Under the pieces are notes generated by a model, which was not told the DNA's origin, searched no databases, and saw only the letters and a program-made list of their open reading frames with translations. Made by a program: the position numbers and the translations under genes. Below are positions 14,972 to 47,877 of a stretch of 47,877 bases of DNA, one piece after another. The stretch is from the NCBI GenBank assembly GCA_017433725.1, contig JAFRGQ010000065.1, forward strand, positions 1 through 47,877. The letters are read 5' to 3'. The first letter of the stretch is position 1; each line of letters begins with the position of its first letter. The DNA is from Lachnospiraceae bacterium. Its GTDB lineage: Bacteria; Bacillota; Clostridia; Lachnospirales; Lachnospiraceae.

Positions 14972-15192
14972 GATTAACCGAAACTTCCCACAGGGGATAT
15001 CTGCCAGTCTCATCATGATAATACTGCATCGGCGGGACGCTTTCGCTCGGTCTCGCTGGCAGCGGTACTAAGAAATTTTCGGCGCCTGTGGCTTGAAAAT
15101 TTCAAGTACCGGCCGCTCGACGACGCCACGCCGATTAGCAGTATTATATGATTTCGACTGAAGAAGACAGCAGGTGGGAAGTTTGATTAATC
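14972..15192. repeat. Fold-back element, about 220 bp
   Basis: The two halves are imperfect inverted copies. GATTAA and AAACTTCCCAC (14972-14991) face GTGGGAAGTTT and GATTAATC (15174-15192). ATAATACTGC and ATCGGCG face CGCCGAT and GCAGTATTAT. GGTACT and GAAATTTTC face GAAAATTTC and AGTACC around a centre near 15083. The transcript could fold into one long branched hairpin. It lies in a 380-bp gap without genes between the YitT gene and the RluD-type gene. It may be a non-autonomous mobile relic, a structured RNA or a terminator; no coding capacity is visible. Confidence 0.65.
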
Positions 15193-15288
15193 GAGTGGAG
15201 AGCAGCTGAGTAGTGAGAGTAATTGAGTGGAGAGAGCAGCTGAGCAGAGAGAGTAATTGAGTGGTGAGAGCAACTGTGTATGGGGGCT
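15188..15288. repeat. Degenerate 33-bp tandem repeat
   Basis: TAATCGAGTGG, TAATTGAGTGG and TAATTGAGTGG recur at 15188, 15220 and 15254. Each is followed by a GAGAGCAGCTGAG-like stretch, giving nearly three units of 32-34 bp. It abuts the fold-back element. Confidence 0.5.
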
Positions 15289-32263: not shown

Positions 32264-33094
32264 GTGAACATAGGCGAGCGTATATTGGAACGCAGAACTC
32301 AGATTAAAATGAGCCGGGAGACATTTGCGAAGAGAACGAATGTACCGATTGAGACAGTAAAATCATGGGAAAGCGGAAGTGCAATTCCCGAAACACTCCG
32401 CCTCACAGGTATAGCACATGCGCTCAACACCAGCGTAGAGTATCTGCTGGAGGAAGACGATCCTATCCACAACAGGTGGCAGCTGAACGACCGGATGTTT
32501 TCGGAAGACAGCATGTACCGGTTCGTTGAACGGAAAAGCAGAGAGTTGAACCTTCTGCAGACTCAATATGCCCTGTCTTTTATGAAGAAAAGTCATGAGG
32601 GACAGTTTAGAAAGGGAGCTGACCGGGTGCCGTATATCAATCATCCTCTTCTTATGGCTTGCCATGCGTTTGCTGTCGGGATTCAGGAGGATTCGGTTAT
32701 TGCGGCCTGCCTGCTCCACGATGTTGTAGAGGATTGCGGCGTCAGGGCCGAAGAACTGCCTGTCAGCGACGAGGCCAGGGAGGCCGTTCTGCTTCTTTCT
32801 TTTGAAAAGCAGGAAGGGCTTACGAAGGAAGAATCACTGGAGAAGTATTATGAGAAGATTGTTAACAACAGGATCGCTTCAGTAGTAAAATGCCTGGACC
32901 GCTGCAACAATATCTCAGGCATGGCGACAGCGTTCACCAGAGAGAAAATGGCTAATTACATCGACGAGACAGAACGGTATATCATGCCGATTCTCGATAA
33001 TATCAAATATCAGTATCCTGCTTACAACACCGCTTCGTTCCTCCTCAAATATCATATGAGAAGCGTTCTGGAGACTCTGAAGCATGTTTTGTGA
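32264..33094 (+). CDS. XRE domain fused to a SpoT-like HD hydrolase domain
   Basis: Residues 1-62 form a Cro/C1-type helix-turn-helix (SRETFAKRTNVPIETVKSWESG). Residues about 100-220 match the (p)ppGpp hydrolase domain of RelA/SpoT proteins. Every residue known for hydrolysis has a counterpart: R116 (HEGQFRKG), H127 (YINHP), H152-D153 and E156-D157 (LHDVVED), and D212 and N216 (KCLDRCNN). There is no synthetase, TGS or ACT domain. It therefore looks like a MESH1-type alarmone hydrolase with a DNA-binding head; that it acts on ppGpp is inference. The GTG start follows GGAGGAG. The protein is 276 residues. The phosphodiesterase gene follows immediately. Confidence 0.85.
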   Translation: MNIGERILERRTQIKMSRETFAKRTNVPIETVKSWESGSAIPETLRLTGIAHALNTSVEYLLEEDDPIHNRWQLNDRMFSEDSMYRFVERKSRELNLLQTQYALSFMKKSHEGQFRKGADRVPYINHPLLMACHAFAVGIQEDSVIAACLLHDVVEDCGVRAEELPVSDEAREAVLLLSFEKQEGLTKEESLEKYYEKIVNNRIASVVKCLDRCNNISGMATAFTREKMANYIDETERYIMPILDNIKYQYPAYNTASFLLKYHMRSVLETLKHVL

Positions 33095-34458: not shown

Positions 34459-34905
34459 ATGTTTAGTTTTTTTAAAAGAAAGAAGAAAGCAAAAATCATA
34501 GATATTGCGGACGCGATAGCGTTTGCCAATCGGAGCGGCAAGTATTATTATAAAATGTCGGAAGAAGAAGTTGTCCTGAGGCCGGACAGAGCATTTTCAG
34601 TCATGGGAATTACTGACCCGGAGCTCGAGGCGGATATAAAGGCGCATCCGGACGATTATCTTCCGCTGCCGGTCCTGACAGCCGCCGACGAGATGCAGCT
34701 GATGATGAATTTTGCGAAAATGCAGCGCGACAGAGAGCTTCAGAGTGAACTCATAGGGATACTGCAGAAACCGGGTGCCATGCGCGCATTTCAGGCAAGG
34801 ATCCGGAATGGCGGGATGCAGGAGAAGTATGACGCATATCGGCAGGATATATGCAGGAAGGTCGCGGAGAACTGGGCTAAGGAGAAGGGCTTAAAAGGCA
34901 TATAG
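34459..34905 (+). CDS. UPF0158 family protein, copy 1
   Basis: UPF0158 proteins are small soluble proteins of unknown function. The conserved pattern is clear: IADAIAFANRSGKYYYKMSEEEVV at the start, then HPDDYLPLP and DEMQLMMNFA, then a helical C-terminus. It starts with a short basic stretch MFSFFKRKKKAK absent from copy 2. The protein has 148 residues. A GAGGGA ribosome site precedes the ATG. It lies 12 bp after the PHP gene and 31 bp before its paralogue. Confidence 0.8.
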   Translation: MFSFFKRKKKAKIIDIADAIAFANRSGKYYYKMSEEEVVLRPDRAFSVMGITDPELEADIKAHPDDYLPLPVLTAADEMQLMMNFAKMQRDRELQSELIGILQKPGAMRAFQARIRNGGMQEKYDAYRQDICRKVAENWAKEKGLKGI

Positions 34906-34936
34906 GCTCACAAAGAGCCCGCAAGGGGGTCAATAT

Positions 34937-35362
34937 ATGACGGTGAAACTACAGGATGTAATAGACGGTATAACATTTGCGAACGCAGAGGCTCAGTTCT
35001 TCTACCACACGAAGACAGGCAGGGTGCTTATTCTGATGGATAATATCTACGGAATCGGAAGAGATAAGGCGCTCATGAAAGACATCGACCGGAATCCGGA
35101 TGATTATCTCAGCCTTCCGAATGAGTATGAAGTAGACGAGTTTGCAATGATGGCTGATTTTGTCGATACGCTCGATGACAGCGAGGAGGCTTCCGCACTG
35201 TTCAGAGTCCTTGAAGAGGATGGGAACGCTGCCACAAGACTCTTTAAACAAACCGTGAAAGCTTTCGAGCTGGATAAGGAGTGGAACGAATTCAGGAACG
35301 GGTGTTATGCCGAGATTGCACGGCAATGGTGCAGTGAAAATGAAATAGAGTATGAAGAATGA
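34937..35362 (+). CDS. UPF0158 family protein, copy 2
   Basis: This is a tandem paralogue of the preceding gene. Shared phrases are VIDGITFANAEAQFFYHTKTGRV, NPDDYLSLP and DEFAMMADFVDTL. It has 141 residues. AAGGGGGT lies upstream of the ATG. The two copies have diverged widely, so the duplication is old. The C-terminus EEYEVDEFAM region and the acidic charge suggest a soluble protein; no function is known. It ends at a terminator. Confidence 0.8.
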   Translation: MTVKLQDVIDGITFANAEAQFFYHTKTGRVLILMDNIYGIGRDKALMKDIDRNPDDYLSLPNEYEVDEFAMMADFVDTLDDSEEASALFRVLEEDGNAATRLFKQTVKAFELDKEWNEFRNGCYAEIARQWCSENEIEYEE

Positions 35363-35857: not shown

Positions 35858-35952
35858 TCTTATCGGAAGTTGCGATAGCAGACATCGATAAAAAGGCAGG
35901 TTTATCGGCCGTATTATGATCATGAGGTTCGCGAAGCGGTTCTCATTATATC
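35858..35952 (+). repeat. 95-bp repeat, solitary diverged copy
   Basis: This is exactly the same length as the tandem units at 47636-47877 and shares their start TCTTATCGGAAGTT and the core GTTCGCGAAGCGGTT. The hairpin around that core is ATGAG/CTCAT here but ATCGG/CCGAT in the array, so both sides changed together. It ends just before the ribosome site of the M14-like gene and would form its mRNA leader. Confidence 0.75.
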
Positions 35953-35966
35953 AATTGGAGGATGCA

Positions 35967-38471
35967 GTGGCAGATAAATTCACATTATTCGGAAAAGCAG
36001 AAAAGGGAACAGATCAGGGGCAGGACAACGGTTCTCTTGATGAGGGGTTTTTCGAAGAGTTTTCTTTTGACGATTTTGATTATGACGACATCTTTGGCTC
36101 GGAGCCGGAAGAGGAAGAGCCGCCTGAACCGGTGAAAGAGGAGAAAAAGGACAATGTGCAGCAGGTGACGCCGCCCGTAACCGCGCCTGTCGGAAAGGAG
36201 CAGCCGGTCGTTACGCCGCCCGTAATTCAACCTGTGCAAAAGGAGCAGCTGTTCATTACGCCACCTCAGAGCGGAGCACAGAAGACTGAAAGAGCGGATC
36301 AGTACGAGAACCTTTATCAGGACAAGGAAAGCCTTGCTCCGAAGACAGAGATCGAACCTGACGATCCGATGCTCAGTGAGTTCGAGAGTGCACTCGCCGC
36401 GGAAATTCAACGCGTGACAAAAGAGCAGGAAGCGGAGAAGAAACGCATCGCTGCAATACGGGCTGCAAGACATGCAAATGACGCGTCCGGACAGAGGGCA
36501 GCCGATGAGAGGAATGCAAGGTCCTATGTCGGCGGTGAATCGATCAGGAGCGGCGGATGGGCGAGAAGACGCCGGAGCAATCAGCCCTATACCGAGATCG
36601 GGAATGTAAATGAACCGGTTCCTGTGAGGACTCCGAAAGCAGTTGAGCCGCGAAGGGAGATCGGCAGTTATTCGGCTTCGGGGCAGGCAGATGATGAAAT
36701 CCTCACTCAGGAAGATGTGAGAAGACTGGCCAGGGAGCAGGAGCGAGCGAAAGCAGCTGCAGCCCGGGCAGAGCGTGTGAAGGCTGCGAGAGCGGCGCAG
36801 GCGGAAGCTGAGCGCCAGGCTGCGATTGCCCGTGAGAAGGAAGAAGCGGAGGCAAGACTCAAAGCAGAAGCAGAAAAAGCGGAAAGAGAGGCCGAGGAGG
36901 CCAGGCAGCGGGAAGAGGCGGAGCGCATCGCCCGCGAAATAGCCGAGAGAGAGGAAAGAAACCGCATAGAGCGCGAGGAAGAGGCCAAGAGGGAACTTGC
37001 TGAAAAAGCAGCAGCCAGAGAGCTTCTGGATGACGATGAATATTATGATGATGACGACGACGGTCCGAGCCGCGGAAAAACAGTGGTCACGGTATCGGTC
37101 ATTATGGTACTTCTCCTGTTCGGTGTCGGCGCTGCGATGACATACTTCTGGTCGAATCTGTCAGTCAACAGACCGGGCGGCAATGCAGATAACACAGCTC
37201 AGGTCGGTGCAGCCACCGTGTCGACGGCGGAAGAAGCAGCTCAGGATGCAAAGAACAACGAAGCTTCCATGACACCGGAAGAGAGCAGATTTCTTGAGGA
37301 AAGCCGTGCGGCTGCAGCTGCGTTTGCAGAAGAACAGAAAGCAGCACTGGCAAGAGCAGCCGAACTCGAGCAGGAAGAGAGAAATGCTATGCTGGCAGAA
37401 GCCGGAATGGTCGGACTTCCGGATATCAGTACCCGTGATCTCAGTGAATACCTTACCGAGATGCCTGCGGAAGGCGCCTCAATCTGTACGACCAAATCTG
37501 TTCTGTATTCCTATGATCAGATGGTCAAAGACCTGTATTTCCTGACCGTGCGCTATGGTGATTATATCAGCATGGGCGTCATCGGAAATACGATGGATCA
37601 GAGAGCAATTTATCAGGCGGTGATCGGAAATGCCAATGCAAGCAAGCATATCGTGATATATTATGGACTTAACGCGACTGATTGTATCGATACGGTCCTC
37701 GCTATGAATCAGCTTGAGGTTTACTGCAAGGCGAGAAAGAACGGCACGGCTTATAAGAGCCACTCGATCGACAGTATCTTCGAGGATGTATGCATTCATG
37801 TAATTCCGATGGCGAATCCGGATGGTATAGCTGCGAGCCAGTATGGCATCGATGCGCTCAGAACAGAAGAGGCGAGAGCGTCTGTTCAGGCAGCGTACGA
37901 TGCGGATGTGGCTGCCGGACGCACATCTGAGCCGATCGAGAACTATCTGAAGACTTATACTGCCAATGCAGCAGGCGTCGATCTCAGCTGCAACTTTGAC
38001 ATCGGATGGGAAGAATATGTGAGCGGACCAGAAACACCCTCAGCATCAGGATACAAGGGAACAGCTCCGTTCAGCGAGGTCGAGACGCAGGCTATTGCTA
38101 ACCTTGTTGACAGTGTAAGTACAGCGGCCGTGATCGGATACGGAACGGCAGGCAACGTGATCGAGTGCGGTTTCGAGTACGACGGACCGGCAGAACAGGG
38201 CGTTTCGAACGTGACGGATATCGGTGAAGACAGTCTTGCTGACGCACTCACTGCAAAAACGGGCTATGAAAAATCTGATATGCCTAAGTTCGATGAGAGT
38301 AATGTAGGCGGTGCAGCACAGTACTTCCTGCATGAAAAGCAGATTCCTGCTGTTGTGGTCAGGACGGGAAGCGGGGAGCCGCCTCTTGATGAGACACAGA
38401 TGTCCTCGATTTGGAGTGCAAATTCCGAGGTGCTTCAGATGATAGGCAATCTATATACGAACGGATTATAA
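35967..38471 (+). CDS. Membrane protein with degenerate M14 carboxypeptidase domain
   Basis: This 834-residue protein has an acidic N-terminus (1-60), a Pro/Gln stretch, a long Arg/Glu/Ala coiled coil (about 240-350), one membrane helix at 371-394, a second coiled coil, and an external domain from about 510. That domain follows the M14 zinc carboxypeptidase plan (MANPDG at 615-620, GVDLSCNF at 670-677, PFSEVET at 701-707). However, the zinc HXXE is replaced by YYGLNATD, Arg of DLNRNF is Cys, the second zinc His is not found, and the catalytic Glu after PAVVV is replaced. It should be inactive and may bind wall peptides. The GTG at 35967 has TTGGAGGA upstream; an ATG at 35916 would lie in the repeat. 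Confidence 0.82.
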   Translation: MADKFTLFGKAEKGTDQGQDNGSLDEGFFEEFSFDDFDYDDIFGSEPEEEEPPEPVKEEKKDNVQQVTPPVTAPVGKEQPVVTPPVIQPVQKEQLFITPPQSGAQKTERADQYENLYQDKESLAPKTEIEPDDPMLSEFESALAAEIQRVTKEQEAEKKRIAAIRAARHANDASGQRAADERNARSYVGGESIRSGGWARRRRSNQPYTEIGNVNEPVPVRTPKAVEPRREIGSYSASGQADDEILTQEDVRRLAREQERAKAAAARAERVKAARAAQAEAERQAAIAREKEEAEARLKAEAEKAEREAEEARQREEAERIAREIAEREERNRIEREEEAKRELAEKAAARELLDDDEYYDDDDDGPSRGKTVVTVSVIMVLLLFGVGAAMTYFWSNLSVNRPGGNADNTAQVGAATVSTAEEAAQDAKNNEASMTPEESRFLEESRAAAAAFAEEQKAALARAAELEQEERNAMLAEAGMVGLPDISTRDLSEYLTEMPAEGASICTTKSVLYSYDQMVKDLYFLTVRYGDYISMGVIGNTMDQRAIYQAVIGNANASKHIVIYYGLNATDCIDTVLAMNQLEVYCKARKNGTAYKSHSIDSIFEDVCIHVIPMANPDGIAASQYGIDALRTEEARASVQAAYDADVAAGRTSEPIENYLKTYTANAAGVDLSCNFDIGWEEYVSGPETPSASGYKGTAPFSEVETQAIANLVDSVSTAAVIGYGTAGNVIECGFEYDGPAEQGVSNVTDIGEDSLADALTAKTGYEKSDMPKFDESNVGGAAQYFLHEKQIPAVVVRTGSGEPPLDETQMSSIWSANSEVLQMIGNLYTNGL

Positions 38472-38602: not shown

Positions 38603-38827
38603 ATGCTTCAGGAAATTATTGACGTTCTGGCACAGTATACAGATGTACCGTCTGAGCAGATTAACGAGACATCTAACCTGATTGACGATCTTGAACTTAA
38701 TTCATTTGATGTAATGACGATTGTCGCTGACTTTGAAGAACAATATGATATCCATATTCCGGATGAACAGATCATGGAGTTCAAAACAGTTGCCGATATA
38801 GAAGAGTATCTGGAGAAAAACAGATGA
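38603..38827 (+). CDS. Acyl carrier protein
   Basis: This 74-residue carrier protein would hold an acyl or aminoacyl chain on a phosphopantetheine arm. The attachment serine is S34 in DLELNSFDVM; the usual DSL is NSF here, which some dedicated carriers share. It is acidic and has the four-helix pattern. AAAGGAGG precedes the ATG. Its stop overlaps the start of the ligase gene by 4 bp (ATGA), so carrier and ligase are made together. That pairing points to a dedicated acyl-ACP or DltC-like system, not to general fatty acid synthesis. Confidence 0.9.
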   Translation: MLQEIIDVLAQYTDVPSEQINETSNLIDDLELNSFDVMTIVADFEEQYDIHIPDEQIMEFKTVADIEEYLEKNR

Positions 38828-40395
38828 AATCATACGGACCATATATACTGCCGCAGATCGGTTCTCTGAGAGAAATGACCGATTTACGGGTAAAAGATAA
38901 TCCGGATGGTATCGCGTTCTTTTATACCGGAAACGACGGATCCATCGTTACTAAGACCTACAGACAATTCAGCGATGATGTGAATGCTGTCGGGACATAT
39001 CTTTATGCACATAATTTTCGGGAAGGGTCTCATATTGCGCTTCTCGGCGTAAATTCCTATGAGTGGCTGGTTACATTCTTTGCGATAGCCAACGGCGGAA
39101 ATGTCGCTCTGCCGATGGATGCCAGACAGCCTATGGAGAACATAATTAAGCTGTGCGCAAACGGGGACTGCGCTGCACTTGCATACTCTGAGGAGTTCGC
39201 AGCGGCTATTCCCGCATTCAGGAAGAATCTGTCCGATATTCCGGCCGCTGATGCGAGAGGATTCGTAGACCTTCCGTTTACCTCCTTTGACGAATGGGTC
39301 AGCGAAGGAGCAAAAAGGATCGGGGAAGGAGATACATCTTTCATCGATCATGAGATCAATGCGGACGATATGTGCGCGCTGGTCTTTACTTCAGGCACGA
39401 CTGGCATTCCCAAGGGCGTTATGCTCAGTCAGAAGAATATTGCGGCAAATATCAATCAGGCATGTAAAAACTTTGTGCTGGAAGGCAACGGCCTCTCACC
39501 GCTGCCTATGCATCATATGTTCGGCCTGATCGTCGGGCATCTGATGGTCTTTAATTATAATAAACCATGCTACATAGTCAGAAATATTCGAAACCTTATG
39601 AAGGACATTCAGATTGCAAAGCCGGAGTGCCTTTTCGTGGTTCCGATGATTATCGAGACCTTTGCCAAGCAGTTCAAAGTCATGGCAAAGCGAATGGGCG
39701 GACAGATCACACCGGAGCAGGTGCAGGCAATGACCGGCGGAAATCTTCGGTTCATTATCTGCGGCGGTGCTCCTTTATCGTCAATGTATGTCAAGATGTT
39801 CAGACAGTTTGGGTTAGAGATCCTGAACGGATACGGTATTACCGAATGCTCACCAGTTCTCGCAGTGAACAGGAATGAAGATATGTGTGACGGCTCTGTA
39901 GGGCCGGTCCTTTTCGGGTGCGAGGTCAGGATATCCGATGAAGGCGAGATTCTTGCCAAAGGTGACAATGTTATGCTCGGTTATTACAGGAATCCGGAGG
40001 CGACAGCCGAGGCGTTGCAGGATGGATGGTTCCATACGGGTGATCTCGGAAAGATCGAGGATCATTACCTGTTCATCACAGGCAGGACTAAGAATCTGAT
40101 CATTACCTCAAGCGGCGAGAATATTTCACCGGAAGAACTTGAGGAGAAGGTCCTCGCTGATCCGGCGGTCGCAGAGGCGATCGTATATGACGTTGACGAT
40201 GTACTTGCGGTTCAGATCTATCCGGAGAAGGAAGCGGGAGCTCCCGCCGAGTATTTCCAGGCTCTGCTCGATCGTATCAACAAGGGTGAGCCGGTCTATC
40301 GTCAGCTGAAGAAGCTCGTTCTCAGAGACGAACCTTTTATAAGGAATTCCACAGGAAAGATCATCCGGACTCAGATAAAGGATAATCAGGAATAA
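38824..40395 (+). CDS. AMP-forming acyl-ACP ligase
   Basis: This ANL-superfamily adenylating enzyme activates a carboxylic acid with ATP and probably loads it onto the adjacent carrier protein. Motifs are the P-loop-like FTSGTTGIPKG (188-198), YGITECSP, the TGDLGKIED block and the C-terminal STGKIIR, whose lysine is needed for adenylation. It is 523 residues and has no membrane segment. DltA-like enzymes use D-alanine, but the length and N-terminal sequence fit acyl-CoA/acyl-ACP synthetases better. The substrate cannot be told from sequence. It is translationally coupled to the ACP gene and ends at a terminator before the giant protein gene. Confidence 0.88.
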   Translation: MKSYGPYILPQIGSLREMTDLRVKDNPDGIAFFYTGNDGSIVTKTYRQFSDDVNAVGTYLYAHNFREGSHIALLGVNSYEWLVTFFAIANGGNVALPMDARQPMENIIKLCANGDCAALAYSEEFAAAIPAFRKNLSDIPAADARGFVDLPFTSFDEWVSEGAKRIGEGDTSFIDHEINADDMCALVFTSGTTGIPKGVMLSQKNIAANINQACKNFVLEGNGLSPLPMHHMFGLIVGHLMVFNYNKPCYIVRNIRNLMKDIQIAKPECLFVVPMIIETFAKQFKVMAKRMGGQITPEQVQAMTGGNLRFIICGGAPLSSMYVKMFRQFGLEILNGYGITECSPVLAVNRNEDMCDGSVGPVLFGCEVRISDEGEILAKGDNVMLGYYRNPEATAEALQDGWFHTGDLGKIEDHYLFITGRTKNLIITSSGENISPEELEEKVLADPAVAEAIVYDVDDVLAVQIYPEKEAGAPAEYFQALLDRINKGEPVYRQLKKLVLRDEPFIRNSTGKIIRTQIKDNQE

Positions 40396-40579: not shown

Positions 40580-43500
40580 ATGGCAAATACACTTATACTC
40601 TACGATGGAAGACAGAGCTCAGCGGAGCGCGTTGCAAATGCAATCGGCTACATAATCGGAAATGTAAGAATCGCTGAGATAGGGGATTCACCTGACGACA
40701 TAGCTGTCTATGACGGATTCTGTTTTATCTTTAATTTTTACGGGGCACTGACAGCGGGTAAGACGAAATCCTATCTGCTGAGGAACCGCGAAGGCCTGCT
40801 CGGAAAGCGGGTTGCTTTTGTCGGTCTCGGTTTTTCCGATTCCGGTTATACAAAGTATGTAGTGGATATGGAAACCGCAGTCGGAGGAGATCTCTCAATT
40901 ACCGGAATGTTCATCAAAGATGAGAGAACGACATCTGAAGTAGGCTATCAGATTGCCAAAAAGCTTCGTGCTCCGGTTTCCGTGATGCCTGCCGATATGC
41001 TTGGCCGCGAGGTCGAAAGCTTCATCAACCGGCATACGACACTGGCACTGGCGACCGGTGGTGGTGCCAGAATCAGATGTACGCCTCTTGAATACCTGTA
41101 TCTGGACGGTGTCTTTTACATTATTTCCGAGGGCGGACTTAAGTTCAGCAATATTCAGGATAACAGTAACGTGTCAGTATCTATATTCGACGAGTACACA
41201 GACAGCACACAGCCACTTTCCGGACTGCAGATGTATGGCATGGCGGAGCAGGTGGCGTTCGGAAGCAGTGACTATTGGCAGATACTGAACCTCAGAGGAG
41301 TGACGCCGGAAATTCTGGAGGATCTGCCGGTCACTCTGTTCGTGCTGCGCATTATTCCGATGACATATGAGTATCTGAATTCAACTTTTGCAAATGCAGG
41401 CTACGACGCCCGCCAGGTCCTTGACACCCGGTTCAGAGCAGAACGTTGGGAAATCAGTTATGCTTCTCTTCATGCTGCGGCAATGCGTGAACAGGAGAAG
41501 AAGGAGGCCGAGGAAGCACAGAGCAAGATTACTCCGAGAAGAGCGGCAATTGTGACAGAAAAGGCCGTACAGAAAGAACTGGCTCAGGAAATCAGAAATG
41601 TCCTGGATGAGAATACCCCCAGAAAAACGGCTGAGGATGAAGAACGTGAATATCAGGAGATGTCCGCCTTTATTGACGCGCGTGAAAATGCCGCGGCGAA
41701 GGATGAAAAACCTGTTGAAACGGAAGAAGACCTCGGTGCAGCTGTAAGAAGAATGCTGCAGATGGAGGATATCGGTAGGACTGACTTTACGGCCTCAGAG
41801 ACCTCGGAGAAAGAGTCCGGAGATGATGTAGTATCATATGCTGCTGCGAGTGCGGTATATAGCACTTATACTGCGCCGGAAGAGACAGATGATATGTCAG
41901 CGGTATCCGACACTGTAACAGAGGAAGCGGTGAGCCCGGAAGAATACGCCGGAGCTGAAGTGCAGGATGCAGAAGGTTCGGAAGCAGAGAACGCATTTGC
42001 AGAAGAAGCAGAAGATGTGGCAGAGGATGCTGACGCTCAGGTTGAAGAAGCCGAGGTTCCGGAAGAAGCCGGTAGTGAGGCAGAAGAAGTCGTGGTTCCG
42101 GAAGAAGCCGGTAGTGAGGCAGAGGAAGCCGAGGTTCCGGAAGAAGCCGATAATGCGGCAGAGCAAGCCGAGATTCCGGAAGGAGTGGCTGACTCGGATG
42201 CAGAAGAAGGCGAGAGTCCGGAAGAAGAGACAAGCACCACGGCAGAGACAATTGAAGGTACGGCAGCAGAATCCGACGTTTTGATAGTGGAATCCGAGAA
42301 TCCGGAGGAGACAGGTACCACTGCAGAGAATGCGGAAAACGTGGATTTAGATGTAGTTGCAGCACTTGTAGAGAGTAAATTAGCGGAAAAGACATTCGTC
42401 GAAGAAGATCGCGGCGGAGATGATATAGTAGAGATTTCGGAACAGACCTCTGTGCAGGAGGACGTTCCGGCAGAAGATATAGAAAAAACGGTCGGTACCG
42501 GAGAAATGACGGCTGAAGAACTTGCAGCAGAGATAGCTGCGTTCGCTTCTCAGAACATGATACTTATGGATGAGGAGGATGAGCCGTCTGAAAAAGAAAC
42601 TGCAGAAGAAGAGAACTACGAAGTCCGGGCAGTGGAGGCAGAGGAGGCAGAGGAAGCAGAGACTTACGAAGCCTCGGCAGAGGAAGTAGAGACTTATGAA
42701 GCCCCGGCAATGGAGGCAGAGGAAGTAGAAGCCTACGAGACTCCGGCAGTAGAGGCAGAGGAAGTAGAAGCCTACGAGACTCCGGCAGTAGAGGCAGAGG
42801 AAGTAGAAGCTTACGAAGCCCCGACTGTGGAGGCAGAGGAAGTAGAGGCTTACGAAGCCCCGACTGTGGAGGCAGAGGAAATAGAAGCCTATGAATCCCC
42901 GGCAGTGGAGGCAGAGGAAGCGAAGACTTCTGAAGCCTCGACTGTGGAGACAGAGGATGTTGAGAACTACGAAGCTCCGGCTATGGAAGCAGAGATTTCT
43001 GAAGCCCCGGCAACGGAAGAGGAGGCTGACGAGGTCCCGGCAGCGGTAGCAGAGGAAGTAGAGACTTACGAAGCACCGTCAGTTGTGGCACAGGAAGAAG
43101 AAACTCCCGAGGTTTCGGCTGCGGAAGCTCCTCCTATCCTGTCAGAAGAAATCAGGGCGGCCCTCAGAGAAGTTGAGGAAGGAACAGAGGAAACAGAAGA
43201 AACGGAGAAGCCGGTTGATACTGTCCTCTACAGCGGTGAGAGAAGCAGTTCCGGGAATCTGTACAGAAGCAGGCAGACCGGGAGAGACGATGATTTTACC
43301 GACAGCATACAAGTCCAGAACAGGAATCTCGGCGCTGAGATACGGAAAATATTCCAGGGTGGCGGTCTTTCTTTTGCAGACCAGCTCGAACTGAAGAAAG
43401 CTGAAGCAGACGGAATCGATCCGGATGAGATTGAAAAGCCAAAGAAGGTTCAAAAAGGAATCTTTGATGACGAATCCGAATACAGAAGAAGTGTACCGAA

Positions 43501-46378
43501 AGCGACTTCTTTCATAGCGGAACAGGATGTAGAAGGTGAGCCGGAAGAGGAAGAGGAGGAAAAAGAAACCTATACTCTTGAAGATCTCGAGAGAGATACC
43601 AGTTTTGAAAATGAGACTGAACCGACGGGCGAGAAGAAAACAGAGAAAAGGAAATTCACAGACTTCTTCCGCTCATCGAAGAAGCAGACATTTGATGATG
43701 AGTCATTTGCTGATGAATTCGATGATTTGGATGAAGAAGAGGAAATGGATGAGCTCGAAGAACTCGAAGATGAGCTTGAAGAAGAGGCCAGAATCGAAAA
43801 ACCGAAGAAGAAAAAACAAGGAGGTTTTTTCTCAACCGGGTTCGGGCGCAGTATAGGACGATTCCTCGGCATCAATCCGGATATGGAAGATGATGATGAC
43901 GAGGATGAGGAAGATTTTGATAATCTTGACGAAATTGATGAAGAAACGGATGATGATTTCGACCTCGTCGAGGATGATGACGATTCTGAGGAAAGTGAAC
44001 CGGACTGGATGACTCGTCTGAGAGAGAGACGTGAGGATGAGGATGTCGATGCAGACGACGCTGAGTTTTATGGTCTGGATGATGACGATGAAGACGAGGA
44101 TCTTGATGCAGATATCGCTAAGCTGTACGGTTCGGATGACGAAGATGAAGAAACGGATGATGCTTCTCCGGAAAACATGAATTCCTCAGAAGAAGAGTAT
44201 TCGGGCGCTGAGAATGCAACCGATCATCACGTGGATCGGGAAGCATCGGGTATAGCTGATGTCGCGGAAGTTTCAGGCGATGCCGGCGGCCCGGATGAAG
44301 AGGATTCCGGCGAAGCAGATGAATATACTGATGTTGCCGATGATGAATTGGACGCAATTTCAGCGGCCCTCCTGAAGAATCTTGAAATCGTTGAGAAGGA
44401 TGCGGCAAGAGAGAAGACGGAGCAGTCTCGTGCTGAAGATGAAGAGTACGAGGAAGGCCTTACATCTGCTGATGAGGCAGAAACAGGGGCTTATGAAGAT
44501 GAGTCTGCTTCTTACGATGAATTAGAAAACGAAGCGTACGAAGACGAATCTGACTTTGAATCTGAGACAGAGAATGAAGTGTACGAAGACGAGTTTGATT
44601 CAGATGAAGCAGAGGATGAAACGTACGAAGATGACTTTGATTCAGATGAAGCAGAGGATGAAACGTACGAAGATGACTTTGATTCAGATGAAGCAGAGGA
44701 TGAAACGCACGAAGACGAGTTTGACTCTGATGAAGCAGAGGACGAAACATACGAGGACGAGTTTGACTCAGATGAGGAGGTAGAAGACGAGTCTGCCCTC
44801 TACGATGGAATGGGGTACCAACAGGATGAGTTCACCTCTTCCGGCAAAGCAAAAGACGTGGCACCGGCATCTGAGGAAGAAGCGGAAGATACTTCGGAAG
44901 AGATTGTGTCTGAAGCAGAAGAGTATGAGGATGAGTTTGAATCCGAGGATGCGCTCGGAGAAGAGACAGCCTCTGAGGGAGATGATTTTGACTCTGATAT
45001 AGAGCAGGGTTCTTCTGAAGAATCCGAATCTCCTGAGAATGACAGAAAAAAGAAGGAGAAGAGATCTCTGTTCGGCAGGAGAAAATCATACGAAGAGGAC
45101 GAGTATGATGATCTCGATGATGACGACCTCGACGATGATGAAGAAGATGAGCTCGAGGAACACTCATTTATAACAAGCTTTTCTTCCATGCTTCGCTCTG
45201 CAATTGACAGCATCCGGGGAGGTTCATCAGATAAATCAGAGAAATCTAAGAGGAAAAAGCCAAAGGTAGAGGAAAGAATTCGGGAGGATGACGAGGAACT
45301 CAAGGAGATGGAAGCATTCATCTCCGGATTGAGAGAGAAGGAAGAGATGGAGGCCGCAAGAGAAGCCGAGCGTAAGTCGGCGCGGGCAGGTGTGACGGAA
45401 GAGCCTGATGCCGCAGAGATAGATACGGTATCTGCAGAGTATATTGGCGAATCGGAGCAGCCCTCCGAGGAAGAGCCGGACGCTGCGGAGGCTCCATCGA
45501 TATATGCAGAGTACGTAGAAGAACCGGAACAGCCCTCTGAGCAAGAGCCGGACGTAGTGGAAGATTTCACAACATCGGAGTATACAAAATCGTCAGATTC
45601 GTCTGTTCAGGAAGAACAGGGTACAGAATCGTATATCGATTATATAGACGATGACGACGAACATGAATATGAAGACGATGAGCTGGATTTCGCGGATGAC
45701 GATGACTCGGATGTTATAATTCCGGGTTCACGCAAAGAGGCTGATTTCGGAATGGTCATCAGAGGCTTTGAGGATGACGAGAGCGAAGATCTTCCGGAGG
45801 AAGAGGACGAAGAAGAGGATTCGGATGAGGATGAGGAATGGCAGTATGACTACCAGAGAATCCTTGAAAGAAGAAAAGCTACGGCTTCCCGGGATGAAGA
45901 TATGAGTGAAGATTCCGACGAGTACGCATACGAAGAAGATGAGGAGGAATCGGACGAGTACGCGTACGAAGAAAAGGATGAGGAATCAGACGAGTACGCG
46001 TACGAAGAAGAGGACGAAGAATCGGACGAGTATACGTATGAAGAGGAGGACGAGGAATCGGACGAGTATGCGTATGAAGAGGAGGATGATGATACGCTCG
46101 AAGTAGTGAGCGGAGAATCGGAAGGCTATTCATATGACGTAGAATCCGAACGAGCTTCAGATAAAGATGAAGAAACGGAACGTCCCATGACGCTGGAAGA
46201 TTTGGTGAGAATGGAACGGGAACTTGACTCTGACGATTCGTATGAGAGCTGGGAAGACCTCGACGATCCGGATGATGACGAATACTACGATGATGACCTT
46301 GAATATGAAGACGACGACGATGAGTGGGTCTATGAAGAAGATGACGACGTCGCGGATGCTTCCTTTGAGTCGCTTTGA
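40580..46378 (+). CDS. Giant acidic protein with flavodoxin- and PNPOx-like head
   Basis: Residues 1-135 look like a flavodoxin fold (TLILYDGRQSSAERVANAIG, FIFNFYG, VAFVGLGFSDSG). Residues about 150-290 look like a split-barrel FMN-binding domain (LALATGGGARIRCTPLEYLY, YIISEGG, SVSIFDEY). The remaining 1640 residues are overwhelmingly Glu and Asp, with Ala, Val, Ser and Tyr, and hold three perfect-phase tandem arrays. Short basic, amphipathic islands interrupt it: KRKFTDFFRSSKK, KKKKQGGFFSTGFGRSIG, and RKKKEKRSLFGRRKS. There is no signal peptide or membrane helix. The head suggests a flavin-linked redox role; the tail suggests scaffold or ion-binding. GAGGTG precedes the ATG. The DUF3810 gene follows by 28 bp. 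Confidence 0.82.
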   Translation: MANTLILYDGRQSSAERVANAIGYIIGNVRIAEIGDSPDDIAVYDGFCFIFNFYGALTAGKTKSYLLRNREGLLGKRVAFVGLGFSDSGYTKYVVDMETAVGGDLSITGMFIKDERTTSEVGYQIAKKLRAPVSVMPADMLGREVESFINRHTTLALATGGGARIRCTPLEYLYLDGVFYIISEGGLKFSNIQDNSNVSVSIFDEYTDSTQPLSGLQMYGMAEQVAFGSSDYWQILNLRGVTPEILEDLPVTLFVLRIIPMTYEYLNSTFANAGYDARQVLDTRFRAERWEISYASLHAAAMREQEKKEAEEAQSKITPRRAAIVTEKAVQKELAQEIRNVLDENTPRKTAEDEEREYQEMSAFIDARENAAAKDEKPVETEEDLGAAVRRMLQMEDIGRTDFTASETSEKESGDDVVSYAAASAVYSTYTAPEETDDMSAVSDTVTEEAVSPEEYAGAEVQDAEGSEAENAFAEEAEDVAEDADAQVEEAEVPEEAGSEAEEVVVPEEAGSEAEEAEVPEEADNAAEQAEIPEGVADSDAEEGESPEEETSTTAETIEGTAAESDVLIVESENPEETGTTAENAENVDLDVVAALVESKLAEKTFVEEDRGGDDIVEISEQTSVQEDVPAEDIEKTVGTGEMTAEELAAEIAAFASQNMILMDEEDEPSEKETAEEENYEVRAVEAEEAEEAETYEASAEEVETYEAPAMEAEEVEAYETPAVEAEEVEAYETPAVEAEEVEAYEAPTVEAEEVEAYEAPTVEAEEIEAYESPAVEAEEAKTSEASTVETEDVENYEAPAMEAEISEAPATEEEADEVPAAVAEEVETYEAPSVVAQEEETPEVSAAEAPPILSEEIRAALREVEEGTEETEETEKPVDTVLYSGERSSSGNLYRSRQTGRDDDFTDSIQVQNRNLGAEIRKIFQGGGLSFADQLELKKAEADGIDPDEIEKPKKVQKGIFDDESEYRRSVPKATSFIAEQDVEGEPEEEEEEKETYTLEDLERDTSFENETEPTGEKKTEKRKFTDFFRSSKKQTFDDESFADEFDDLDEEEEMDELEELEDELEEEARIEKPKKKKQGGFFSTGFGRSIGRFLGINPDMEDDDDEDEEDFDNLDEIDEETDDDFDLVEDDDDSEESEPDWMTRLRERREDEDVDADDAEFYGLDDDDEDEDLDADIAKLYGSDDEDEETDDASPENMNSSEEEYSGAENATDHHVDREASGIADVAEVSGDAGGPDEEDSGEADEYTDVADDELDAISAALLKNLEIVEKDAAREKTEQSRAEDEEYEEGLTSADEAETGAYEDESASYDELENEAYEDESDFESETENEVYEDEFDSDEAEDETYEDDFDSDEAEDETYEDDFDSDEAEDETHEDEFDSDEAEDETYEDEFDSDEEVEDESALYDGMGYQQDEFTSSGKAKDVAPASEEEAEDTSEEIVSEAEEYEDEFESEDALGEETASEGDDFDSDIEQGSSEESESPENDRKKKEKRSLFGRRKSYEEDEYDDLDDDDLDDDEEDELEEHSFITSFSSMLRSAIDSIRGGSSDKSEKSKRKKPKVEERIREDDEELKEMEAFISGLREKEEMEAAREAERKSARAGVTEEPDAAEIDTVSAEYIGESEQPSEEEPDAAEAPSIYAEYVEEPEQPSEQEPDVVEDFTTSEYTKSSDSSVQEEQGTESYIDYIDDDDEHEYEDDELDFADDDDSDVIIPGSRKEADFGMVIRGFEDDESEDLPEEEDEEEDSDEDEEWQYDYQRILERRKATASRDEDMSEDSDEYAYEEDEEESDEYAYEEKDEESDEYAYEEEDEESDEYTYEEEDEESDEYAYEEEDDDTLEVVSGESEGYSYDVESERASDKDEETERPMTLEDLVRMERELDSDDSYESWEDLDDPDDDEYYDDDLEYEDDDDEWVYEEDDDVADASFESL
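42680..42991 (+). repeat. 39-bp tandem repeat in the giant gene
   Basis: Eight units of 39 bp encode variants of EVEAYETPAVEAE. Spacing is exact from 42680 to 42991 (for example starts at 42719, 42758, 42797, 42836). Confidence 0.8.
44594..44775 (+). repeat. 42-bp tandem repeat in the giant gene
   Basis: Four units and part of a fifth, each 42 bp, start with TTTGA at 44594, 44636, 44678, 44720 and 44762, and encode FDSDEAEDETYEDD variants. Confidence 0.8.
45914..46093 (+). repeat. 36-bp tandem repeat in the giant gene
   Basis: Five units of 36 bp encode SDEYAYEEEDEE variants, starting at 45914, 45950, 45986, 46022 and 46058. Confidence 0.8.
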
Positions 46379-46406: not shown

Positions 46407-47489
46407 TTGAAAAGATTTATAACATCACTGACTCTCTGTGCCCTGGCTCTGGCTTCGAGGCTGGGCATGAGAGCGGTGCCGCAATTTGCAAATATCTATG
46501 CCGAACACTTGAATGCCTTCTGGGTGAATACACTCGGAAGGCTTTCTTCCTTATTCGGCTTTTCTGTGGTCGAGTTCCTGATTTATCTTCTGATTATACT
46601 GACAGTCGTACTGATTGTTCGAGTGATTTGGGGTAATATCAGACGCATTGGAAACGGGAAAATCTACGGTAAAGACGAGCTGCTCCTTGCCCTTGTGCTC
46701 GCCTCGGTGATCTTTTTTCTGTTCGAGTGCAATCAGGACATGTACTTTTACCGAACGACGTTCTCGAAGACCTATGGAATCGGACAGGGCAGCTATACGA
46801 CGGATGAACTTGAGGCGGTCTGCAGGATGCTTGCTGAAAATGTCAATGCTCTCAGCACCAAAGTCACCCGGAATAAAGACGGAATCATGCAGTGTGATGC
46901 GGATATCAGGAATCGGACCAGGCTGGCTATGACAGCACTCGGTGAAAAATATCCCTATCTCGGCGGATGGTTCCCGAAAGCGAAGCCTGTCACAGTTTCG
47001 GAACTCCTGTCCTATTCGAACATGACAGGAATATATTCGGCATACACGATTGAAGCCAACTATAACACGGATATGACGCCGTACAACATTCCCTATACGA
47101 TGTGCCATGAGCTTTCTCATCTGAAAGGCGTTATGCAGGAGAATCAGGCAAATTTCTGCGCCTATCTCGCATGCACGAACGCGGAGGATCCTGACATTCT
47201 GTATAGCGGTTATCTTATGGCGTGGGTGTATTGCGGAAATGAGTTGTATAGAAGGGATTATGACAGGTGGAAGGAAATTTCCGGAACACTTGAACATAGT
47301 TGCAACATTGACCTGAGTGATAATAATGCATTCTGGGCAAAGCATGAAGGCAAAGTGTCGGAGGCCACGGAGAGTTTTAATGACTCGTGGCTTAAGGCGC
47401 ACGGGCAGACTGATGGGACCCTGTCATACGATAAGGTGGTCGATCTGATTATTTCCTATGAGAGCATGAAGGCAGTGAACGCAGGGTGA
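46407..47489 (+). CDS. DUF3810 membrane metallopeptidase-like protein
   Basis: This is a DUF3810 family membrane protein. It has an N-terminal hydrophobic stretch, two further helices at about 50-72 (VVEFLIYLLIILTVVLIVRVIW) and 89-107, and a large domain facing outward or inward of about 250 residues. The domain contains TMCHELSHLKGV near residue 228 and QENQANF just after, which is the HEXXH...E zinc-peptidase pattern in the form HELSH and E. The start is a TTG with GGAG seven bases upstream; an ATG 60 bp downstream is less supported. It lies 28 bp after the giant protein gene and is probably co-transcribed. Substrate unknown. The product is 360 residues. Confidence 0.85.
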   Translation: MKRFITSLTLCALALASRLGMRAVPQFANIYAEHLNAFWVNTLGRLSSLFGFSVVEFLIYLLIILTVVLIVRVIWGNIRRIGNGKIYGKDELLLALVLASVIFFLFECNQDMYFYRTTFSKTYGIGQGSYTTDELEAVCRMLAENVNALSTKVTRNKDGIMQCDADIRNRTRLAMTALGEKYPYLGGWFPKAKPVTVSELLSYSNMTGIYSAYTIEANYNTDMTPYNIPYTMCHELSHLKGVMQENQANFCAYLACTNAEDPDILYSGYLMAWVYCGNELYRRDYDRWKEISGTLEHSCNIDLSDNNAFWAKHEGKVSEATESFNDSWLKAHGQTDGTLSYDKVVDLIISYESMKAVNAG

Positions 47490-47575: not shown

Positions 47576-47635
47576 ACTTAATATTCACAGATATCGTAGA
47601 TAATGAACCATACCTGACAGGTTTTACATAATATA

Positions 47636-47877
47636 TCTTATCGGAAGTTTCGTAAGAAACTCCCGATAAAAGGGCGATGTAATCGCCCGTAATTCGATTA
47701 TCGGGTTCGCGAAGCGGTTCCGATAATATATCTTATCGGAAGTTTCGTAAGAAACTCCCGATAAAAGGGCGATGTAATCGCCCGTAATTCGATTATCGGG
47801 TTCGCGAAGCGGTTCCGATAATATATCTTATCGGAAGTTCCGTAAGAAACTCCCGATAAAAGGGCGATGCAATCGCC
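47636..47877. repeat. 95-bp tandem repeat array with three hairpins per unit
   Basis: Units begin at 47636, 47731 and 47826, exactly 95 bp apart and nearly identical; the array runs off the window. Each unit has three stem-loops. TTATCGG...CCGATAA encloses GTTTC-GTAA-GAAAC. GGGCGAT-GTA-ATCGCCC comes next. ATTATCGG...CCGATAAT surrounds GTTCGCGAAGCGGTT. The units touch without spacers, so it is not a CRISPR. A solitary diverged copy is at 35858-35952. Confidence 0.9.

Follow-up and report, generated by a model that had tools for sequence, protein, structure and literature searches.

The locus described here raises the question of why a protein that begins with two flavin-type folds should end in a vast acidic tail, and whether such a tail is a working part or filler. 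It lies in a stretch of 47,877 nucleotides (contig JAFRGQ010000065.1; hereafter the window, meaning the whole stretch of DNA that was analyzed) from an uncultured, gut-type member of the Lachnospiraceae, whose 2.66-Mb draft genome (98 contigs, 76.8% complete) contains one match to the two-domain head. The gene is whole, a single intact open reading frame of 1,932 codons (40580..46378, + strand) encoding 1,932 amino acids (aa). A sequence-only reading of this DNA had called the tail extraordinary, and so it proved: 1,632 aa with a net charge of -520, all within the one intact frame. Disordered polyanionic regions of giant size are known best from eukaryotic proteins. The folds of the head are of known kinds; their fusion to a long acidic tail with a gene-specific motif is new, and no published description of the fusion or of the tail was found within the literature and terms searched.

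The two-domain head and its gene neighborhood

That two flavin-type folds share one chain, as had been proposed, was confirmed by AlphaFold and PDB comparison: residues 1 to 135 (40580..40984, + strand) form a flavodoxin-fold domain and residues 137 to 285 (40988..41434, + strand) a PNPOx-like FMN split-barrel domain. The PF01243 profile scored the head alone at 29.6 bits, above its curated cutoff of 28.1, and the whole protein at 27.1 bits, under that cutoff. PNPOx_N was the sole family listed in the whole-protein Pfam scan at E ≤ 1, a threshold at which the Pfam flavodoxin profile gave no match to the window protein; Flavodoxin_5 matched 6 of 28 heads at E ≤ 0.01. In an alignment of these 28 heads, at least 90% conservation was seen at S13, E16, N52, F53, Y54, G55, T58, G82, G84, D87, and G89, positions in the three loops by which flavodoxins hold FMN; the head loop DGRQSSAE departs from the usual phosphate-loop consensus of that family. 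Within the split barrel, R166, T168, G185, G186, and K188 were invariant in all 28 heads and would suit a phosphate site. As a rule, split barrels form dimers. The head, like the islands of the tail described below, is under purifying selection and is 97% identical to that of the related locus L042; flavin binding by it, unproven, is plausible judging by its sequence.

Upstream of the head-tail gene lies a member of the AMP-binding acyl-CoA synthetase family (38824..40395, + strand; Pfam E = 2e-61), and a hairpin with a T-run, seen by eye, sits between the two. Downstream, the open reading frame of a DUF3810 protein (46407..47489, + strand; Pfam E = 6.9e-96) starts 28 bases past the stop of the 1,932-aa gene. 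Its product has two hydrophobic segments and a HELSH motif at residue 234, and two or three hydrophobic segments per sequence were counted in the four DUF3810 sequences examined; a limited literature search found no paper naming this family. DUF3810 was encoded directly 3' of the head gene at 16 of the 23 head loci with readable downstream DNA, and all 9 genomes with tails longer than 800 aa encode it, G001 on a separate contig. No DUF3810 match was obtained in 17 of the 42 genomes of the genus, drafts that may miss it, and 8 of those 17 have a tail (6 complete, 2 cut by contig ends); the family is therefore described as a frequent neighbor and was rejected as an obligatory partner. Beyond it, the contig breaks off within tandem copies of a 95-bp unit (window positions 47628-47877; 2.6 copies, 98% match), which may be the reason that the assembly stops. 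Elsewhere in the window were observed a 34-bp unit repeated in tandem about 3 times (15169-15280) outside the listed open reading frames of at least 100 aa; a 276-aa open reading frame (32264-33094) with a helix-turn-helix repressor-like start (residues 1 to 68) and a match to the first part of RelA/SpoT (residues 103 to 243); two adjoining genes of the UPF0158 family (34459-35362); and a gene (35916-38471) in which an M14 zinc carboxypeptidase (residues 543 to 814) is preceded by a long region that weakly matches TolA and contains a 45-bp tandem repeat.

A mosaic tail with a conserved motif

The tail (residues 301 to 1932) is 39% Asp plus Glu, carries -0.32 charge per residue, and matched no Pfam domain at E ≤ 1. 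It is a mosaic in which fast-evolving acidic repeats lie between conserved basic/hydrophobic islands. Compared with L042, the segment that follows the head (residues 301 to 400; 41480..41779, + strand) is 94% identical with a dN/dS of 0.049, and the acidic spacer after it (residues 401 to 870; 41780..43189, + strand), which includes a 39-bp tandem array (42676-42994, + strand), is 50 to 51% identical with a dN/dS of 0.24 to 0.31, residues 651 to 870 being only 63% alignable. A conserved block follows at residues 871 to 980 (43190..43519, + strand; NRNLGAEIRKIF.GGGLSF..QLE; 91% identity, dN/dS 0.041), with a predicted helix at residues 903 to 926 and a pLDDT of 64 to 83 for its blocks; as a general tail module it was rejected, its HMM matching only the window protein, L042, and L043, the window's own subclade. 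Together with residues 1061 to 1110, the segments 301 to 400 and 871 to 980 span 91 to 94% identity and a dN/dS of 0.04 to 0.05; the remaining tail segments gave 0.09 to 0.39, with one not computable. Against L043, where many segments were saturated, the motif described below was 73% identical and residues 401 to 870 were 28 to 30% identical. When the tail was divided into 65 stretches of 25 residues, the 9 near-neutral or basic ones averaged 88% identity to L042 and the 56 more acidic ones 60%; the rank correlation between charge and identity along the tail was not significant (rho = 0.22, P = 0.08, 65 stretches), because some acidic stretches (residues 1126 to 1175 and 1701 to 1750, 88 to 92% identity) are conserved as well.

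Islands were defined as 20-residue segments with a net charge of at least +3 and at least 4 hydrophobic residues, and were counted against 300 shuffles per tail. Each of the 7 complete tails longer than 1,200 aa contained 4 to 6, compared with 0.04 to 0.55 in shuffles, and showed charge segregation (z of 8.5 to 20.8). Over the 27 scored tails, 70 islands were found versus 12.9 expected; among the other 20 tails, the count exceeded 95% of shuffles in 6 and did not do so in 14. In the tail from the window, the scan placed basic/aromatic islands at residues 1019 to 1039 (43634..43696, + strand) and 1490 to 1509 (45047..45106, + strand). An amphipathic segment lies at residues 1529 to 1549 (SFITSFSSMLRSAIDSIRGGS; 45164..45226, + strand), with a helical moment of 0.57 that none of 1,000 shuffles matched. 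Two further tandem arrays code for acidic repeats, one of 42 bp (44568..44775, + strand) and one of 36 bp (45917..46086, + strand).

Such arrays invite the view that head and motif are what matter and that the acidic part is a tolerated spacer, grown and shrunk by slippage, which has only to be harmless and soluble. The three repeat units of 36, 39, and 42 bp, the range of tail lengths among complete tailed members (146 to 1,648 aa), the occurrence of near-neutral tails, and the relaxed evolution of residues 401 to 870 beside a nearly unchanged head, with another segment at a dN/dS of 0.39, are all as this view would have it. Yet all 7 complete tails longer than 1,200 aa hold a net charge per residue of -0.28 to -0.39 despite their divergence, several acidic stretches are conserved (the two named above), the long tails have more islands than most short ones, and wherever dN/dS of the spacer was computable it was below 1. 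We consider drift of this kind unlikely, though a serious contender.

The motif occupies residues 1073 to 1111 (43796..43912, + strand), with its core, KKKKQGGFFSTGFGRSIGRFLGINP, at 43805-43879 and acid after it. Its pattern is KK..GGFF.R.G..IG..L.I, i.e., basic residues, G-G-F-F-x-R-x-G-x-x-I-G-x-x-L-x-I, and then acid, and in the window protein it is about as conserved as the head. Of 22 complete tails, 19 scored above 26 bits with a 37-position model built from 18 aligned copies, which include most of those scored, and three (L055, L064, and L066) did not and lack the motif; the 22 leave out the tail-less L063 and four genes that run off a contig, and L049 contains a run of N. Because the 18-copy model contains most of the copies that it scored, the copies were also split between two models. 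The one from the short-tail side recovered the motif in 6 of 8 long-clade sequences (the window, L042, L043, L044, L045, and L047) at 14.5 to 27.6 bits and missed the truncated L048 as well as L046, whose best listed score of 5.9 bits fell on a different island; the window copy scored 21.0 bits with a model built from other clades only. Of the 19 other tails, 9 scored 10 to 32 bits with the reverse model; L061 scored 5.2 and L050 2.1, and L057 was not listed. The best of 2,700 shuffled tails reached 6.4 bits with either split model. Members of the medium-length group (L050, L052, L053, and L061) share a second string, LP.[IL]DM[ST]V[IL], in their tails.

On the genome scale, the window motif was found at E = 4.1e-14. 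All 8 strong matches in a scan of 12 genomes fell inside the head-tail gene, and the 19 other listed matches, two of them also in that gene, had E values of at least 0.3. Across 299 family genomes the motif was clear only in two genomes of the window's genus, and the one match besides those of the genus (E = 0.001) lay in a 35-aa frame. A general sorting signal was rejected on the basis of these two scans, within the reach of the 37-position model, and SepF as a source of the motif gave no match with the 18-copy model at the cutoff used. Helical moments were 0.43 to 0.57 in 12 of 14 copies, values equaled by 1 to 13% of shuffles; those of L050 and L057 were no better than shuffles, and the same was true of the start of SepF from the window's genome, a presumed membrane anchor. 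AlphaFold assigned low confidence to the motif region (block pLDDT 47 to 54, from 3 aligned sequences only). By its sequence the motif resembles an amphipathic membrane helix, and since two copies and the SepF start are at shuffle level and the AlphaFold confidence is low, membrane binding is something that we infer. The presence of a short conserved motif makes the tail look like a working tether or scaffold, not filler.

In short tails the motif is close to the C terminus, and in long tails it is internal. It thus sits like a loading peptide, and for this reason we considered whether an encapsulin or a bacterial microcompartment takes up the protein as cargo; an amphipathic segment, short and conserved, at the far end of a linker does resemble encapsulation peptides (PMC12339742). 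The shell genes, however, are missing: none of the 42 genus genomes gave a match to the encapsulin shell family (the window's own draft being 76.8% complete), and 4 of them matched microcompartment shell proteins, with neither the own draft nor any of the 9 genomes with tails longer than 800 aa among these 4. Cargo of either kind is very unlikely on these grounds and was rejected.

The motif also bears on a proposal that makes the polyanion itself the working part, one that takes up or exchanges divalent cations, polyamines, or basic proteins and has the head joined to it for regulation. A charge of -520 spread over 1,632 residues, and strongly negative values in all 7 complete tails longer than 1,200 aa, would suit it; but 4 of 25 tails (L054, L057, L059, and L060) have near-zero net charge and retain the motif, which favors a tether on a solubilizing spacer over a sink that works by polyanionic charge alone. 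The conserved islands would also go unexplained in a tail that has no Pfam domain to its name, and we find the proposal improbable. What the family has in common is a head, a spacer, and a sticker; its acidity varies. The sequence-only reading had described Glu/Asp repeats that may bind divalent cations or basic proteins: the acidic repeats are there, but as a description of the tail they are too simple, given the basic/amphipathic motif in 19 of 22 complete tails, and binding by a Glu/Asp tail is likewise too simple where tails can be near neutral. Overall, that interpretation was partly supported.

Distribution of head and tail

The sequence-only reading would have been refuted by a tail missing from every homologue, which is not what the genomes show. 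In the sample of 42 genus genomes, 27 encode the two-domain head, and 25 of these have a tail (3 of them cut by a contig end); L063 is complete without a tail, and L065 is cut inside the head. Three more genomes (G011, G032, and G062) encode positional orthologs of 551 to 577 aa (L133:5185-6912, L069:6962-8617, and L071:6268-8001) that have the same two neighbors and an acidic tail and no PNPOx domain. Their start is a diverged flavodoxin-like domain with diverged loops (profile comparison probability 97.8%, E = 6.6e-13, 109 columns), and why these three keep an acidic tail is a question that the locus also raises. Matches were restricted to the PNPOx half in G010 and to a 28-aa edge fragment in G064, and ten of the 42 genomes had no head match; one of the ten, G063, has an acidic frame at a contig edge just before DUF3810.

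Matches were obtained in 35 of the 397 genomes of the family sample, and 33 of these 35 lie outside the genus. Of the matches listed for those 33, the one in G229 alone covered both domains, in a protein of 286 aa without a tail; G329 and G119 have frames of 285 to 302 aa that matched in the second half only, and most PNPOx-only relatives are open frames of about 170 to 200 aa. The tail was confined to the genus among the genomes searched. A maximum-likelihood tree computed from 27 heads places the tail-less G026 at the first branch within the genus; support for the 25 tailed rows is not strong (82/80), and tails longer than 1,200 aa are placed in the group of 11 rows to which the window belongs. 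That the tail was gained rather than lost is a reading and not a result, because the root is a midpoint root and G229 is a long branch. One genus provides a natural series in which the same head carries a tail of 0 to about 1,650 residues and 0 to 6 sticker-like islands, by which effects of spacer length and sticker number on bacterial localization and assembly become testable.

A possible tether and its likeness to known systems

We regard a tether of stickers and spacers as the best-supported reading of this protein. The head, a flavodoxin-fold domain and a split barrel, would lead into a disordered acidic spacer of great length, in which a few conserved basic/hydrophobic segments would serve as stickers; these would attach the chain, most likely to the surface of the cytoplasmic membrane or to one fixed partner there, and the acidic stretches would keep it extended and soluble. 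In long-tailed species, several stickers would render the chain multivalent and concentrate the heads in a layer or condensate, an idea that fits the pattern of islands and spacers. The hydrophobic segments of the neighboring DUF3810 proteins and the three orthologs with an acidic tail and no PNPOx domain also count in favor of the tether, and the failure to find DUF3810 in 17 of the 42 genomes counts against it. We infer flavin binding, disorder of the acid, sticker function, a membrane target, and multivalent assembly alike, and the chance that the protein is such a tethered flavin-type module, bound to a membrane or partner, seems to us appreciable, if somewhat short of even. A bolder form of the proposal, to which we give little credence, is a genus-specific scaffold in which a flavin-type sensor head, acidic spacer, and amphipathic stickers build a membrane layer or condensate that possibly touches the division machinery through strings like the FtsZ tail. 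Were it true, tail length and sticker number would be an evolving control knob, which a single genus has set anywhere between no tail and about 1,650 residues.

A direct role in division, as a factor that joins the Z-ring or its membrane anchor, has a slim chance at best. The SepF of the window's genome (L100:856-1779) starts MSLFDRLLGAIRLGDDDELDDDD and continues into a long acidic linker whose acid runs and basic/aromatic islands are like those of the tail studied here; FtsZ of other genus genomes ends in IQIPDFLKNR or IQIPEFLKNR (in the 6 sequences read, of 7 retrieved); and the FtsZ-tail-like string [LM]PSF[LM][RK] occurs in 5 of 28 tails, in three groups, compared with 0.022 expected in shuffles for a slightly wider pattern, an expectation that is biased because the P-S-F-[LM]-[RK] string was picked after seeing one tail. 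No such string occurs in the window's own tail, however, the motif model gave no SepF match, the FtsZ profile had no match in the own draft genome (76.8% complete), and the identified gene neighbors are not known division genes.

Setting aside a role in division, the tether that we prefer can be compared with several known systems. Short-chain flavodoxins, e.g., that of Megasphaera elsdenii, are 14% identical to the first domain and differ in that a second domain and a tail are fused here; PNPOx-like split-barrel proteins (PF01243; of the general stress protein 26 and HugZ types) correspond to one half only, the relatives being mostly about 170 to 200 aa. SepF, a membrane anchor of FtsZ, has an N-terminal amphipathic helix for the membrane and a flexible linker (PMC8178401). 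The protein described here is similar in placing an amphipathic segment beside acid, although the order of parts is reversed and the SepF core domain had no match in the Pfam scan of the window protein. In PopZ of Caulobacter, an acidic spacer with a charge of -0.28 per residue lies between the N-terminal part and C-terminal helices that serve oligomerization, and this spacer tunes condensate properties (PMC9512792). The PopZ family was absent from the whole-protein Pfam scan at E ≤ 1, and the likeness is one of design: a functional N-terminal part is joined to an acidic disordered spacer of similar charge density (-0.28 versus -0.32 in the window), and a short conserved segment lies toward the C terminus, here in the short-tailed members. 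In contrast, the N terminus of PopZ is a short helical region where the head here comprises two flavin-type folds, and its spacer is proline-rich and 78 aa long, which the tails of this genus exceed by up to about 20 times.
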